From: Stappia albiluteola
Lineage (GTDB): Bacteria > Pseudomonadota > Alphaproteobacteria > Rhizobiales > Stappiaceae
Length of the DNA: 64,000 nucleotides
Direction of reading: 5' to 3'
Assembly: GCF_014050225.1 (NCBI RefSeq)
Contig: NZ_JACFXV010000065.1
Location: 1-64,000 of the forward strand
Below the pieces are notes generated by a model. That model saw nothing but the letters and a program-made list of their open reading frames with translations, made no database searches and had not been told where the DNA came from. Position numbers and translations under genes: made by a program. The stretch's first letter is position 1. Each line of letters starts with the position of its first letter. Shown here piece by piece: positions 42,441 through 49,717 of the stretch.

Positions 42441-42887
42441 CTATCCGCCGGACGATTTCAACGCGCCCGGAACATCCGAACCGGCAAAGCCGAAAGTCGC
42501 CAGCCACAGACTCTGGGCAATGCGCTCGGCGACTTCGATGACCGCTTCCGCCGCTTCGGCCTCGAAGACCTCGTGCGCCACCGGGCGGAACACCGCCAGC
42601 CATTCGCCGTAGTCGCTGGACACGATCGATTTCAGCGCGAGATGCGTTGGTACAGGCCGTCCCTTGTAGGCTCCGCTTTTCAGCAACACGGAGTGCCAGA
42701 AGAGTTTCATCTTCTGCAGATGCGGGGTCCAGTTTCCCTCCAGCTTCGCCTCGAAGATCGGCCCAAGACGGGGATGTTCCCTGATCCGACCATAGAATGT
42801 GTCGACCAGACGCGAGATGCCGTCGGCGTCGATAGACGGGTGAACCGCATTCCTGGCACCTGCCGGACGAATATCGATCTCTGTCAT
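42441..42887 (-). CDS. Group III truncated haemoglobin
   Basis: A 148-residue truncated haemoglobin. His82 (VPTHLALKS) is the candidate proximal haem ligand, His56 (WTPHLQKMK) the distal-side residue, and Tyr32 lies at the B10 position; the spacing resembles the Campylobacter Ctb protein. These proteins bind oxygen and nitric oxide and help in NO detoxification. The gene is divergent from an NsrR-like Rrf2 regulator, and a candidate NsrR box (42906-42926) is 19-39 bases upstream of its start. No other nitric oxide genes are in the window. Confidence 0.85.
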   Translation of the reverse strand: MTEIDIRPAGARNAVHPSIDADGISRLVDTFYGRIREHPRLGPIFEAKLEGNWTPHLQKMKLFWHSVLLKSGAYKGRPVPTHLALKSIVSSDYGEWLAVFRPVAHEVFEAEAAEAVIEVAERIAQSLWLATFGFAGSDVPGALKSSGG

Positions 42888-42905
42888 GAAGCCTCGGCAA
42901 CGAAT

Positions 42906-42926
42906 TTATGCATTTAAGATGCATCT
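42906..42926. promoter_or_regulatory. Candidate NsrR binding site
   Basis: On the minus strand the sequence reads AGATGCATCTTAAATGCATA, with ATGCAT half-sites at 42908-42913 and 42919-42924. It resembles the known NsrR palindrome (GATGyATTT-AAATACATC style). It lies 19-39 bases before the truncated haemoglobin start, over its likely promoter. Confidence 0.5.
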
Positions 42927-42989
42927 TTCATTTGCCATTACCGCACCGTAAATTCAATATCGTATATGAATGTTTTATGGATAGCGGCA

Positions 42990-43427
42990 ATGCGTCTCAG
43001 CCAGGCTAGCGATTTTTCGCTGCGAGTTCTCCTTTTACTGGGCCAATCGGAGACAGCCCAGACGGTTGAGTCCGTCAGCCGCCGGCTTGGCCTTGCTCGC
43101 TCCCATGTCATGAAGATAGTGGCGAAACTCGGCCGTCTGGGTCTTGTCGAGACGAACCGCGGACGCGGCGGTGGTATCAGGCTCGGTCGGCCAGCGGACC
43201 AGATCCGCGTCGGCGACGTGGTACGCAAGATGGAGCCCGATCTTGGCGTGGTCGATTGCCTGCGCGAGGGAGGCTCCTGCGCCTTCCTGCCCGCGTGTGC
43301 GCTCAGGCCCGCCATGCGCAAGGCGTCTGAAGCTTTCCTGGAAAGCCTCAATGAACAAACGCTGGCGGCGCTGCTGAGCAAAACACAAGTGCTCGGGGAA
43401 ATTCCCCCGGAAATCCGGCGGCAGTGA
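42990..43427 (+). CDS. nsrR: Rrf2-family transcriptional regulator, NsrR-like
   Basis: A 145-residue winged-helix regulator starting MRLSQASDFSLRVLLLLG. The three cysteines Cys90, Cys97 and Cys103 (in DCLREGGSCAFLPACAL) correspond to the iron-sulfur ligands of NsrR, where they lie at similar positions. NsrR binds an Fe-S cluster that nitric oxide destroys, relieving repression. The divergent truncated haemoglobin gene and the ATGCAT palindrome in between support an NO-sensing role over IscR or RirA. I chose this start because an ATG eight codons upstream lacks a good ribosome-binding site. Confidence 0.82.
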   Translation: MRLSQASDFSLRVLLLLGQSETAQTVESVSRRLGLARSHVMKIVAKLGRLGLVETNRGRGGGIRLGRPADQIRVGDVVRKMEPDLGVVDCLREGGSCAFLPACALRPAMRKASEAFLESLNEQTLAALLSKTQVLGEIPPEIRRQ

Positions 43428-43448: not shown

Positions 43449-44138
43449 TCAAAGCGTAGCCGCCTGCTCCAGCAATTTGGGCTGTTCAAGGCAATAGTAG
43501 CCGGAAATGCGGCTGATCGTGCCGGAGCGTTTCCAGTCGTTCAGTACCCGGCTGACATTCTCACGCGCTGCACCGGCCATATTCGCAATGTCGGCTTGCG
43601 ACAGCTTGTAGTGGATCAGGATACGCCCGTTGTCGATCGGCTTGCCGAAACTGTCGGCAAGCTGAAGCAGCGTCTGCGCGACCCTGCCCGGCAGCGGCAG
43701 GAAGGAACGTGCGGCCAGCACGTCGTTGGCCTGCCTGAGCCGCTTGCCGACGATGGAGAGCATGTGCCGGTAAACCGCCGGATTCTCGTCCGCGAAGCGC
43801 TCGAAGGCGTGCTTCTCGATGAAGGCGAGCCGCGTCGGCTTCAGCGCGGTAACCGTTGCCGAGCGGGCGCGTCCGTCGAGAAGCGCCAATTCTCCGACGA
43901 TATTGCCGGGGCCCATCACGGCCAGAAGCTGTTCATCCCCCTCCACGCTCATGATCGACACCTTCAGAGATCCTTCCAGGATCGCATAGCAGCCGTTTCC
44001 CGGATCGCCTGCCTCGAAGAGGATCGCACCCCCCTTTGCCGTAATTGGACGGGCAAGCGCCGCAAGACGCTCGGCCAGATCCATCGAAAGGCCTTCGAGC
44101 GAAAAGCTGTTTTCCAGGAAATGCTGCAGTTCGACCAT
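43449..44138 (-). CDS. Crp/Fnr-family transcriptional regulator
   Basis: A 229-residue regulator. The cyclic-nucleotide-type beta roll (LFEAGDPGNGCYAILEGSLKV, GNIVGELALLDG) is followed by a dimer helix and a C-terminal winged helix (KLSQADIANMAGAARENVSRVLNDW) with the usual recognition helix. The N-terminal cysteine cluster of oxygen-sensing FNR is absent, so oxygen sensing through iron-sulfur is unlikely. The GELALLDG segment keeps the cyclic-nucleotide-pocket look, but the ligand is unknown. It is convergent with the nsrR-like gene. Confidence 0.88.
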   Translation of the reverse strand: MVELQHFLENSFSLEGLSMDLAERLAALARPITAKGGAILFEAGDPGNGCYAILEGSLKVSIMSVEGDEQLLAVMGPGNIVGELALLDGRARSATVTALKPTRLAFIEKHAFERFADENPAVYRHMLSIVGKRLRQANDVLAARSFLPLPGRVAQTLLQLADSFGKPIDNGRILIHYKLSQADIANMAGAARENVSRVLNDWKRSGTISRISGYYCLEQPKLLEQAATL

Positions 44139-44386: not shown

Positions 44387-44420
44387 GACGAAAGCCCCTG
44401 TCCCCGCGGGGGCTTTTGTC
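44387..44420 (-). terminator. Terminator hairpin downstream of the ChbG-like gene
   Basis: GACGAAAGCCCC (44387-44398) pairs with GGGGCTTTTGTC (44409-44420), 12 bp including one wobble pair. On the minus strand it follows the ChbG-like stop by four bases. Confidence 0.7.
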
Positions 44421-44424
44421 GTTG

Positions 44425-45213
44425 TCAAAACAGGAACAGGTCCTTGTTGAGCAACAGGATATTGAAGCGATCGCTGGCAAGGAACTCGCTCTGGCGCCTG
44501 CGTGCCTCGACCCTCGCAACCGGCTCCAACCGGCGCAGCCGGTCGTCCGCTTCTGCCGGAAAGCAGAAGGAAACCGCCTGATCGGGCAGGCCGTCGAAGC
44601 CGTTCCAGACATGGGCCTCGAGCTTGTCCCGCTCGGAAGCCATTGGCAGATCCCGGCCGCGCGGCAGATGCTCGAGACCCGCTTTCTCTACCCTGCGGCG
44701 GAAGCGGCGCGCCGGGCCGTCTTCCGTGAACGGCGACACGATCATCGGCGGTTTGCGGCGGCTTGCCGCCACTTCCATCACGATTCTCGCCAGCCGCGAA
44801 TACGCCATCAGTTCGTCGGCGAGCAGCAGGAAATCCGGCGCCTTGCCGTAATAGTCCTCGAACCGGTCGATCTGGGCCGCAATCTCGGCAGCGAGCGCAT
44901 CTTCCGGCAGGAGGTGCAGCCGGCTGCGCCAGCCGTACCAGCGGCGCGAGGGAAAGCCCTTCTCGAAGTAGCGCGCGGCCTCGTCGGATACCGGAGCCCA
45001 TGGCTGGGTAAGCGCCAGCGTGACACCTATCAGCGTGGCGTGCCCGGCCTTGTCGATCGTCTGGCGCAGCGGCAGATACTCGCGCGACCACAGGTCGGAC
45101 GCGGCAATACAGCCCACTGCCGACAGCAAACCGGCGGCCGCCAGGTCGCGGATCGAGCGGTCGACGCCGAAGGCCAGGCCGTATTCTGCCGAGGTCAGGG
45201 TGATGCGTTTCAT
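44425..45213 (-). CDS. ChbG/HpnK (YdjC)-family protein with lost metal ligands
   Basis: A 262-residue protein whose overall pattern matches the ChbG/HpnK carbohydrate deacetylases: KRITLTSAEYGLAFGVDRSIRDLAAAGLLSA at the start corresponds to the family's ADDYGL...VNRAI...LSAT. The metal ligands are gone: the Asp-Asp pair is Ala-Glu (TSAEYG), the Leu-His of the second motif reads GVTLALT, and the His-x3-His motif is replaced by LADELMAYS. It is therefore probably not an active deacetylase. It is the third gene of an operon with a GtrA-linked GT2 and a GT39 transferase, the arrangement of Francisella FlmF2/NaxD/FlmK. Confidence 0.75.
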   Translation of the reverse strand: MKRITLTSAEYGLAFGVDRSIRDLAAAGLLSAVGCIAASDLWSREYLPLRQTIDKAGHATLIGVTLALTQPWAPVSDEAARYFEKGFPSRRWYGWRSRLHLLPEDALAAEIAAQIDRFEDYYGKAPDFLLLADELMAYSRLARIVMEVAASRRKPPMIVSPFTEDGPARRFRRRVEKAGLEHLPRGRDLPMASERDKLEAHVWNGFDGLPDQAVSFCFPAEADDRLRRLEPVARVEARRRQSEFLASDRFNILLLNKDLFLF

Positions 45214-45262
45214 GTCGCAGGACTTTCCGTCAAAAGGCTTTCGGCCGCAACTGCAACATCGC

Positions 45263-46786
45263 TCAGCCTTCGGCGGGAAACACCGGATCGCGCGGATCGC
45301 CGACCGGATCGGCTACCCGATAGACCACGAGATCCTCGATCGGGGTACCAAGAGATTGCCGCGTCAGGTCAGGAAGCCGCTCCACGCTGCCGAAGCGCTG
45401 CCTCAGGTAGTCCGCCCCCGGATCGTTGCGCGCCCGGGTGATGAAAAGAGCTGGCTTGGCTACGATGTCCTCATCCAGCGGAGCCTGCATCACATAGCGG
45501 ATGCGCTCGTTGAGCTGCTCGACGGGAAGCCTGCCACGCAAAGCGAAGGCGAGCTGCGAAGCCGGAGCATAGTTATTGGACGCGACCCATGCGGCCCCCT
45601 GATCGGCGGCGATCCTCTCGACGCCGGCCGCGATTTCCTCCCAGCCCCGGGTCTGATGCGTTGGATCGCGGCGGGCGAAGGCACCGGTGAAAGGCATCGC
45701 CGCATGCAGCATCACCAGCAGCGACACGACGATCCCGAGCGGCACTGCCGCCTGCCTCACGCCCCGCCAGAAACGCGGCAGGGCTTTCGGCAAATTGGCG
45801 GCCGCGACACCGGCCATCATCGCAAAGGCGGGAAAGAGCGGCGCCGGCCAGTTGCCCTGCACGCGCGCGTGGAAGGAATGAAAGACCAGATAGGCGATGA
45901 AGGGCAGGACGCCGAGCACGATCAGCCCGGCCTTCTCGTCGCCCTGCCGCATTTGCCCGACGAGCTGCACAAAGCCGGCAACCGCGAGAAGGGCCACCAG
46001 AGGATTGAGCAGGCCGGCGAGAGCGCCGACAAATTCCGCGAGATATTTCAGCGTGAAGCCTTCCGGCACCGCACGGCCGAACTGCTTGGCGAAGGACGCC
46101 CATTCATGCCCGGCATTCCACAGCAGCACGGGCAGGAAAACGAGGACCGCCAGCGCACCGCCCACCCAGAGCTGCCACGCGGTCAGCCAGCGCCGCCCCT
46201 TCGCCATGAAAAGCAGCCAGAGCACCAGCCCGGCACCGAAGAAAAGCACCGAGTATTTCGACACGAGGCCGAGGCCCGCGAACAGCCCGACCGCCAGCCA
46301 CCAATAGGGATTTTGCGAGCGGATCAGTTCGGCAACCGCCCACAGGCCCAGCCCCCAGAAGAAGACCGACGGGGCATCGGGCGTCGCGATCAGGCTGCCG
46401 ACGCCGATCAGGACGGTGGCGTTGAACAACAGCACCGACCACCCAGCGACCGTACGTCCAAAGAGGATGTCGGCCGTCCGCCACAGCACCAGCGAGCCGA
46501 GCGCCGCGGCGAGGATGCCGGTGATCCTCACGGCAAGGGCGGTATCGCCGAGGAAGGTCTGACCGAGCGCGATCCACCAGCCAACCATCGGCGGATGATC
46601 CAGATAGCCGAAGGCAGGCGACAGGCCCCAAAGCCGATAATAAGCCTCGTCCTCGGCAAGACCGGCCTGCGACCCGACCCATAGCCGGACAAGCGTCAGC
46701 GCCAGAACGATAGCGACAAGGGCGGCGGGACGAAGATAGGCCGGCAGGGCGATATCCCTTTGCGTGGTTTTCAAGCCCGGCGCCAC
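45263..46786 (-). CDS. GT39-family glycosyltransferase (ArnT-like)
   Basis: About 507 residues, with some 11 to 12 hydrophobic helices. The first luminal loop has GLAEDEAYYRLWG and GYLDHPPMVGWW, the Asp-Glu and His-Pro motifs of GT39 enzymes that move a sugar from undecaprenyl phosphate onto lipid A or another periplasmic acceptor. The start is uncertain: a GTG at 46786 or a TTG at 46774, both overlapping the end of the upstream GT2 gene. In the operon GT2 would load the lipid carrier and this protein would use it. Confidence 0.88.
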   Translation of the reverse strand: MAPGLKTTQRDIALPAYLRPAALVAIVLALTLVRLWVGSQAGLAEDEAYYRLWGLSPAFGYLDHPPMVGWWIALGQTFLGDTALAVRITGILAAALGSLVLWRTADILFGRTVAGWSVLLFNATVLIGVGSLIATPDAPSVFFWGLGLWAVAELIRSQNPYWWLAVGLFAGLGLVSKYSVLFFGAGLVLWLLFMAKGRRWLTAWQLWVGGALAVLVFLPVLLWNAGHEWASFAKQFGRAVPEGFTLKYLAEFVGALAGLLNPLVALLAVAGFVQLVGQMRQGDEKAGLIVLGVLPFIAYLVFHSFHARVQGNWPAPLFPAFAMMAGVAAANLPKALPRFWRGVRQAAVPLGIVVSLLVMLHAAMPFTGAFARRDPTHQTRGWEEIAAGVERIAADQGAAWVASNNYAPASQLAFALRGRLPVEQLNERIRYVMQAPLDEDIVAKPALFITRARNDPGADYLRQRFGSVERLPDLTRQSLGTPIEDLVVYRVADPVGDPRDPVFPAEG

Positions 46787-47919
46787 GTGAGAACCGAGCT
46801 CGCCGCGTAGTTCCAAACCGCGCCCATGGCGGCACCCGCCGCACCGGCAAACCACCAGACGGGCTGGTTTTCATAGATCAGGTTCGCCACGCCGACATTG
46901 GCCAGCACGCCGACGCTGCAGACGGCATAGAAGGTCAGAAGCCCGCGCAGCGCCGCCATGCCCGTCAGTCGCCGGTCGCGGTAGGTCAGCCGGTTGTTGA
47001 GGAAGAAGTTCCACGTCATCGCCACGAAGGTCGCGATCGTCTGCGCGGCGTTGAACGGGGCACCCAGAAGATCGAGCGTGAATTTCAGCGCCGCCAGATG
47101 CACGACGACGCCCGAGGCGCCGACCATGCTGAACATCAGGAAACGGATGGAAACGAAATCGCCGAAAAGCTTGGACACGAGAAGCCCCAGATAGTCGAGC
47201 GTCACCAGCGTGTCGAGCTTGCTCTCGCCGTGAATGCGCTCGCGGAAAACGAAGGGAAGTTCGACGATGCGCAGGCTTCCCCTGGCGCTCGCCACGATGT
47301 CGAGAAGGATCTTGAAGCCCTGCGTCGAAAGCGAGGGCGCAAGCCGCTCCGCCTCGCTGCGGGAAATCATGAAGAAACCGCTCATCGGATCGGACAGCGT
47401 CACGCCGAGCAGCTTGCGGGCAAGGCCATTGGCAAGGTTCGAGCCGGCGGCGCGTATCTTCGTCAAGCCATGGCCGATATTGCCGCCTTCGACATGCCGG
47501 CTGGCGACCGCGAGGTCCGCCTCGCCGCTTTCCAGATGCGCAAGCATCTTCGGCAACAGCGTCTCGTCATGCTGCAGGTCGGCATCCATCACCGCGACGA
47601 AGCGCGCCGAGGATGCCAGCATGCCCTCGATGCAGGCGCCGGAGAGCCCGCGCCGGCCGATCCTGCGGATGACGCGGACGCGCGGATCGTGCCGCGCCAC
47701 CTTGCGGGCGACGTCCGAGGTGCCGTCCGGCGAATTGTCGTCGACGACGATCACCTCCCAGTCGACGCCCTTCAGCACCGCGTCGAGCCGGGCGATCATC
47801 ACCGGCACATTGTCGCGCTCGTTGTAGGTCGGCAGCACGACGGTGAGCGTGGGCGCGGCCCCGCTCCTGTTTTCTGTCAGCGTCGCGACGTCGCCGCTTG
47901 CGCCCGTGCCTGCCAGCAT
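46771..47919 (-). CDS. GT2 glycosyltransferase fused to a GtrA-like membrane domain
   Basis: A 382-residue protein. The N-terminal 230 residues are a GT2 domain like dolichol-phosphate mannose synthase: VVLPTYNERDNVPVMI, VVDDNSPDGTSDVA and the DxD segment MDADLQHD. The C-terminal part has four hydrophobic helices of GtrA type. Enzymes with this layout place a sugar on undecaprenyl phosphate and may help flip it. The start was set at ATG 47919 because ACAGGAG lies six bases upstream. It is the first gene of the operon with GT39 and the ChbG-like protein, and is divergent from hisS. Confidence 0.92.
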   Translation of the reverse strand: MLAGTGASGDVATLTENRSGAAPTLTVVLPTYNERDNVPVMIARLDAVLKGVDWEVIVVDDNSPDGTSDVARKVARHDPRVRVIRRIGRRGLSGACIEGMLASSARFVAVMDADLQHDETLLPKMLAHLESGEADLAVASRHVEGGNIGHGLTKIRAAGSNLANGLARKLLGVTLSDPMSGFFMISRSEAERLAPSLSTQGFKILLDIVASARGSLRIVELPFVFRERIHGESKLDTLVTLDYLGLLVSKLFGDFVSIRFLMFSMVGASGVVVHLAALKFTLDLLGAPFNAAQTIATFVAMTWNFFLNNRLTYRDRRLTGMAALRGLLTFYAVCSVGVLANVGVANLIYENQPVWWFAGAAGAAMGAVWNYAASSVLTWRRA

Positions 47920-48112
47920 GAATGCTCCTGTCGCGGCCCTGCCCGCCCGGGCATTTCTGGCCGATTTCGCGGCGGACCATATTCGGAACGCCGGGCAATG
48001 CAAGTCCCCTCGCCGCCTTGCCCCTCAAACCGCAATCGTCTAGAGCATGTTCGCAATGAAAATACGGTCTTTATGAGCCGGAATTGAACTTATCGACGGA
48101 CCCTATCGAGAC

Positions 48113-49717
48113 ATGGCGAAAGTAAAGCAAGACAAGCTCAGGGCGCGCCTGCCGCGCGGCTTCGTGGACCGGTCGGCGGCCGATATCCGCGCGACCGACG
48201 CGATGGTCGCCCGCATTCGCCAGGTCTACGAGCGATACGGCTTCGACCCGGTCGAAACGCCGGCTTTCGAATATACCGACTGCCTCGGCAAGTTCCTGCC
48301 CGATACCGACCGTCCGAATGCCGGCGTCTTCTCCGTGCAGGACGACGACGAGCAGTGGATGAGCCTGCGCTACGACCTCACCGCGCCGCTTGCCCGCCAT
48401 GTCGCGGAAAACATCAACGAGATCCAGCTTCCCTATCGCACCTATCGCGCCGGCTGGGTGTTCCGCAACGAGAAGCCGGGGCCGGGCCGCTTCCGCCAGT
48501 TCATGCAGTTCGACGCCGACACGGTGGGCGCCGCCGGCGTCCAGGCGGATGCCGAAATGTGCATGATGATGGCCGACACGATGGAAGCGCTTGGTATTGC
48601 GCGCGGCGACTACGTCATCCGCGTCAACAACCGCAAGGTGCTCGATGGCGTGATGGAGGCAATCGGTCTGGGCGGCGACGAGAATGCCGAGCGCCGGCTG
48701 ACCGTGCTGCGCGCCATCGACAAACTCGACAAGTTCGGTCCGGAGGGTGTCGCGCTGCTGCTCGGCGAGGGCCGCAAGGACGAGAGCGGGGATTTTACGA
48801 AGGGGGCGGGGTTGAATTCCGATGCAATTGAGAAGGTGATAACCCTTCTCGACGTCGGCAATATTAGCGAGGAGGTCATCAAAGAACATCCGGCAGCCCA
48901 AGCTCGCCGCGCTCAAGGTGGAATGGCAGGCTCTGAGTATGAAGCACATCGTGCAGACTTGGTTTTTGGCGGCTATTCGCGACTTCTCTATAGCAGCTCG
49001 ACTGGCCTGTCTGGGCAGGCAGAGCTTCGAACAATTTGGGATCTGGTGAAAGCTGCTGGATACGGAGATGGCCGCATCCGCATCGACCCTTCCGTCGTGC
49101 GTGGCCTCGAATATTACACCGGCCCGGTCTACGAAGCGGAGCTGCTGTTCGACGTCACCAACGAGAAGGGCGAAGTCGTCCAGTTCGGCTCGGTCGGCGG
49201 CGGCGGGCGCTATGACGGCCTGATCAAGCGCTTCACCGGCCGCGACGTTCCGGCAACAGGCTTTTCCATCGGCGTGTCGCGCCTGATGACGGCGCTGAAG
49301 AACCTCGGCAAGCTCGGCGACGAAGACGTGCTCGCGCCTGTGCTCGTCACCGTGATGGACGGCGATACCGGAGCGCTTGGCCGCTACCAGCAAATGACGC
49401 AGACTTTGCGCGCCGCAGGCATCCGCGCCGAGATGTATCAGGGCAACTGGAAGAAATTCGGCAACCAGCTGAAATATGCCGACCGGCGCGGCTGCCCGCT
49501 CGCCATCATCCAGGGCTCGGACGAGCGCGCCGCCGGCGAGATCCAGATCAAGGACCTGATCGAGGGCAAGCGGCTTTCCGGCGAAATCACCGACAACGTC
49601 ACCTGGCGCGAGAGCCGGCCGGCGCAGGTCACCGCGCGCGAGGCGGATCTCGTGGAGACCGTGCGCGCCATGCTGGCCGCCCAGGCCGAAGACCGCCGCG
49701 CGGCGAAAGGAAACTGA
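48113..49717 (+). CDS. hisS: Histidyl-tRNA synthetase
   Basis: A 534-residue class II synthetase. Motif 2 ([20 protein letters not shown]) and motif 3 with [10 protein letters not shown] are present, plus the histidine-specific [14 protein letters not shown]. The C-terminal anticodon-binding domain ends near VRAMLAAQ. Between about residues 225 and 320 the sequence and DNA change character: bases about 48780-49075 are less GC-rich and use other codons than the flanks. This is the variable insertion domain, so the enzyme is probably intact. The next gene, hisZ, starts one base after the stop. Confidence 0.94.

Follow-up and report, generated by a model that had tools for sequence, protein, structure and literature searches.

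In ChbG of K. pneumoniae (7VI8), the zinc is held by D11, H61 and H125, while D10 has been proposed as the base and H206 as the acid, and R223 touches the acetate (PMC9402603). A second member of the YdjC superfamily, the N-acetylhexosamine deacetylase NaxD of Francisella and Acinetobacter, deacetylates undecaprenyl-P-GalNAc (review PMC11279074), and its gene lies beside those of lipid-linked-sugar transferases, as in the FlmF2-NaxD-FlmK cassette. A 64,000-nucleotide stretch of Stappia albiluteola DNA (the window) holds genes for a GT2-GtrA protein, a GT39 protein and a ChbG/YdjC-family protein (Table 1), and the original prediction had read them as such a cassette, in which the deacetylase-like protein has lost all usual metal ligands. 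We here compare this protein and its neighbors with their relatives and with the described systems.

The YdjC-family protein and its active site

The protein belongs to the ChbG/YdjC family, since it scores 63.1 bits against the Pfam YdjC profile (PF04794), with a cut-off of 29.7. Its AlphaFold2 model (mean pLDDT 95) was compared with YdjC crystal structures, as had been proposed, and a full-length ChbG-like fold was found, matching ChbG 7VI8 with a Z-score of 26.6 and an rmsd of 2.3 Å over 239 residues. The best PDB fold was EF3048 (2I5I, Z 26.9), with 7VI8 next, and the top five structural matches were all YdjC-family proteins (Z 20.6-26.9). A phmmer search of the PDB sequences with the single window sequence matched no YdjC chain and was thus insufficient, so that the alignment to 7VI8 was made with the family profile. 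The window genome was also searched for further YdjC proteins, and none was found besides this one.

Table 1. Positions of the genes, active-site codons and candidate terminator discussed in the text (window numbering)
Feature	Position	Strand	Basis
Crp/Fnr-type regulator, downstream neighbor conserved in Stappiaceae	43449..44138	-	Pfam, locus comparison
Terminator-like hairpin just past the YdjC stop, candidate end of the GT2-GT39-YdjC unit	44400..44413	+	Consensus match only; T-run scored on + strand
Catalytically degenerate ChbG/YdjC-fold protein, 262 aa	44425..45213	-	Pfam YdjC, AF2 model, active-site substitutions, purifying selection in relatives
Codon R238 (ChbG R223, acetate contact)	44500..44502	-	Invariant in 114/114 aligned YdjC proteins
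Codon F218 (ChbG H206, acid)	44560..44562	-	Alignment to 7VI8 and relatives
Codons A132-M136, ADELM (ChbG H125-H129)	44806..44820	-	Alignment to 7VI8 and relatives
Codon T65 (ChbG H61, metal ligand)	45019..45021	-	Alignment to 7VI8 and relatives
Codons A9-E10 (ChbG D10 base, D11 metal ligand)	45184..45189	-	Profile alignment to 7VI8
GT39/PMT_2 transferase for lipid-linked sugars; exact start codon uncertain	45263 to about 46804	-	PMT_2 110 bits
GT2 carrying a GtrA/DPMS membrane domain at its C terminus; listed start maybe too early, later one likely	46771..48003	-	Glycos_transf_2 118 bits, GtrA 69 bits
hisS, conserved divergent neighbor, then hisZ and hisG	48113..49717	+	Locus comparison; hisG, hisZ by Pfam in relatives

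In the profile alignment, the metal ligands D11, H61 and H125 of ChbG are replaced by E10, T65 and A132, and the base D10 and the acid H206 by A9 and F218. The change from D11 to E10 is conservative, and this carboxylate is the only metal-ligand position that is kept, while the acetate-contacting arginine is retained as R238. Metal ligands relocated elsewhere in the protein were sought along the sequence, but none had moved, and the columns conserved in the canonical enzymes (DGHxHxH, HPG and R160) were all lost. The window protein is very unlikely to use the known zinc mechanism, and we hold with high confidence that it is a non-deacetylase pseudoenzyme.

Spread, origin and maintenance of the degenerate protein

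The relatives of the window belong to Stappia, Hongsoonwoonella, Roseibium/Labrenzia, Pseudovibrio, Pannonibacter and Breoghania (Stappiaceae), and a PF04794 match was present in all 87 Stappiaceae genomes. A scan of genome contigs returned 0 loci with the single sequence and 56 loci with the alignment as query. As a result of aligning 114 distinct YdjC proteins, 44 were found to be canonical (DDH-H.H-H) and 70 degenerate, the latter comprising 65 Stappiaceae proteins and five of f44, another family in the order. Single retained histidines aside, there were no intermediates. D10 was lost in 70/70 degenerate proteins and H206 in 68 (His kept in L098 and L107), and the H61 position was still His in one of the 70 (L076). 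The claim that all metal ligands are lost accordingly holds for H61 and H125 of the window protein, but goes slightly too far in including D11, whose position is acidic (D or E) in all 70. Additional YdjC proteins found in the order's other families were canonical wherever the motifs were readable, which they were not fully in L215, L225, L234 and L235.

A branch with an SH-aLRT support of 99 placed the canonical proteins on one side, and those of Stappiaceae and f44 on the other. Since the tree was a quick one and its f44 branch is long, the common synteny was taken as independent support for orthology: the f44 locus has hisS-hisZ-hisG on one side and Rrf2 on the other, together with a globin-like gene in three of the five genomes. 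For the same reason, a single and old origin of the pseudoenzyme of both families is likely rather than proven. The ligand loss itself is ancestral, being neither recent nor local to the window, and both families are predicted to lack metal-dependent deacetylation by this protein. The f44 proteins (L154, L155, L190, L191 and L192) are far more divergent, without the C-terminal EKDIFL strand, yet their frames are open and apparently constrained.

We then considered whether the gene is still maintained. A decaying gene without function would explain the lost catalytic residues. However, the dN/dS of YdjC was 0.02-0.24 in close Stappiaceae pairs, with GT2 and GT39 in the same range (two GT39 values above 1, resembling frame-shifted tblastn fragments, were set aside), and about 0.1 in the f44 pair of lowest dS. 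The fetched Stappiaceae copies were furthermore open and full length, and the family match occurs in every Stappiaceae genome, so that decay is contradicted by the selection data and scarcely credible. The low dN/dS values indicate that the degenerate YdjC is a functioning protein kept by purifying selection, and not debris. The original description of a full-length, in-frame YdjC pseudoenzyme was thus borne out by its Pfam score, the confident model, the clade-wide loss and the purifying selection. The PF04794 match means that the clade is likely annotated as deacetylases by family alone, which would be wrong across Stappiaceae.

W42, G63, E110, Q114 and R238 were conserved across both pseudoenzyme groups and in the canonical enzymes, W42 and R238 at 100% in both groups. 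Residues conserved specifically in the pseudoenzyme clade were T65, R19, P190 and Q241, the last replacing E226 of ChbG in most members. Different chemistry at the altered site is possible, and a metal-independent reaction at a site rebuilt around D/E10, R238, Q241 and T65 would agree with these clade-specific residues and with the constantly acidic position 10. Nevertheless, positions 132, 134, 136 and 218 vary freely inside the clade, unlike a catalytic site, and the two families share no conserved pair of general base and acid; we therefore regard an enzyme with changed chemistry as improbable.

The GT2-GtrA and GT39 genes with and without the YdjC gene

Both glycosyltransferase genes of the window are intact by Pfam; GT39 overlaps or abuts GT2, and the YdjC gene starts 49 nt downstream of GT39 (gap at 45214-45262). 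The three genes were adjacent and on the same strand in all 20 fetched Stappiaceae loci, and the coupling was found in 54/55 named Stappiaceae loci with both GT genes on the contig, one further locus being left out because its contig ends before these genes. The distance from the GT39 stop to YdjC was nearly constant, with 51-140 nt in 52/55 loci, gaps of 873 and 1707 nt being disregarded. The predicted adjacency of the gene set thus held within Stappiaceae, where the near-invariant order could reflect an obligate partnership. Indeed, these figures favor a non-catalytic subunit or scaffold dedicated to the GT2-GT39 lipid-linked sugar pathway, which would bind GT2 or its product and control the supply to GT39. 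However, the unrelated hisS and Crp genes are nearly as constant beside the Stappiaceae YdjC as the GT genes, so that conserved order alone is weak evidence for partnership. This main rival is further weakened by f44, where the protein occurs but GT39 and an orthologous GT2-GtrA are missing, and by other families, which have GT2-GT39 without the protein, and we consider it rather unlikely.

Other features of the neighborhood were also recorded. At 42441-43427 of the window, a small globin-like gene, with no Pfam match at an E-value of 0.001, is divergent from an Rrf2-type regulator gene; several Stappiaceae have conserved the two, and in f44 they are likewise found close to the pseudoenzyme gene. 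Comparison with anti-phage defense families gave no match for GT2, GT39 or YdjC.

Outside Stappiaceae, 31 genomes sampled from the order carried an orthologous GT2-GtrA protein with 48-65% identity. At the 21 non-Stappiaceae GT2 loci fetched, GT39 adjoined GT2 in most and YdjC in none; in L202 (family f45), the Crp gene directly follows GT39. When YdjC was sought in 19 non-Stappiaceae genomes with GT2-GT39 orthologues, eight had none at all. Conversely, the five f44 genomes lacked an orthologous GT2-GtrA and gave no more than a weak GT39-like match, while keeping the pseudoenzyme at the same his/Rrf2 chromosomal position. The pseudoenzyme can therefore be separated from the GT2-GT39 cassette, and the cassette from the pseudoenzyme. 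In the proposed survey of relatives, the same ligand loss next to GT2 and GT39 was thus seen across Stappiaceae, but the f44 orthologues proved to be uncoupled, an outcome that had been named beforehand as refuting the prediction. As a separate observation, GT2-GtrA and GT39 form a cassette that is old within the order, since 35 others of the 150 genomes sampled had a GT2 of 48-78% identity, and the pair adjoins hisS in one other family as well.

This separability means that the window set is not a decayed FlmF2-NaxD-FlmK set, and the Francisella-like part of the original prediction was not supported. According to that reading, the protein is the leftover, with a new role, of a NaxD/Lgm-type deacetylase, in a cassette that once moved a deacetylated amino sugar and now moves the acetylated one. 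The three protein classes do match the known cassette, and NaxD acts on undecaprenyl-P-GalNAc (PMC11279074). In addition to the loci and genomes without YdjC described above, two observations argue against it. First, canonical YdjC in other Alphaproteobacteria usually adjoins a different GT2, which is GtrA-less in the cases checked, and this is the arrangement to set against NaxD. Second, the closest solved protein to the window GT2 is the dolichol-P-mannose synthase of P. furiosus (2e-50), far ahead of ArnC; although the likeness does not fix the sugar specificity, nothing in it appears to point to an amino sugar. A decayed NaxD-type deacetylase is thus, in our judgment, very improbable. Among the canonical class-level loci (including L159 and L161), one carries a MurJ-like flippase and one a PMT_2-like protein.

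Possible role and comparison with known systems

The best reading of the Stappiaceae locus is the recruitment of a non-catalytic YdjC beside a GT2-GT39 cassette. As its most probable role, we propose that the protein would be a cytosolic one that binds a ligand, probably an acylated sugar or a sugar-lipid or sugar-nucleotide intermediate, by the retained pocket (W42, R238 and the acid in place of D11), and that the ligand-bound protein would contact or regulate another protein, thereby tuning cell-envelope glycan synthesis. W42 and R238 may be kept for folding only, which would count against the pocket. In Stappiaceae, co-expression of the protein with the cassette is probable, and the protein may have a modulating effect on it, but elsewhere the cassette does not need the pseudoenzyme, nor is the cassette needed for the pseudoenzyme to be kept. 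The ligand-binding regulator mechanism in itself is tentative. Equally tentative is its extension to a dedicated family of sugar receptors that have the YdjC fold but no catalytic activity, converted once from a deacetylase before the split of Stappiaceae and f44, which would sense an acylated sugar or sugar-lipid intermediate and regulate envelope glycan assembly. As a whole, a conserved pseudoenzyme of single origin, acting as a cytosolic ligand-binding regulator and separable from GT2-GT39, is the best explanation, to which we give an even chance. The clade is a clear-cut natural example of a pseudoenzyme conserved with a genomic partner in one family and without it in another, which makes the dependence of its role on the glycosyltransferases testable.

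Compared with the ChbG/YdjC deacetylases (PF04794; 7VI8; EF3048, 2I5I; TTHB029, 2E67), the window protein is of the same family by sequence and has the same whole fold (Z 20-27) with the acetate-contacting arginine, but it lacks the base, the acid and both histidine ligands of ChbG, and has E for D11 and Q for E226. As with NaxD, a YdjC-family gene lies beside lipid-linked-sugar transferases, but the catalytic residues are missing, and window-type GT2-GT39 and the pseudoenzyme are each found elsewhere without the other. In relation to the FlmF2-NaxD-FlmK or Lgm-type cassette, GT2, YdjC and GT39 occur together within Stappiaceae only, and a functional deacetylase is missing, since the active site is lost and the window genome has no other YdjC. 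Finally, as in the present case, a deacetylase fold has been described as a pseudoenzyme among the CE4/NodB proteins (BA3943, 7BKF and 6HPA; the protein of 4M1B), whereas the window protein belongs to the ChbG/YdjC branch and has lost different residues. No description of a ChbG/YdjC pseudoenzyme lineage was found in the models or the open-access literature searched and, as far as that literature shows, the clade of Stappiaceae and f44 would be the first to be described.
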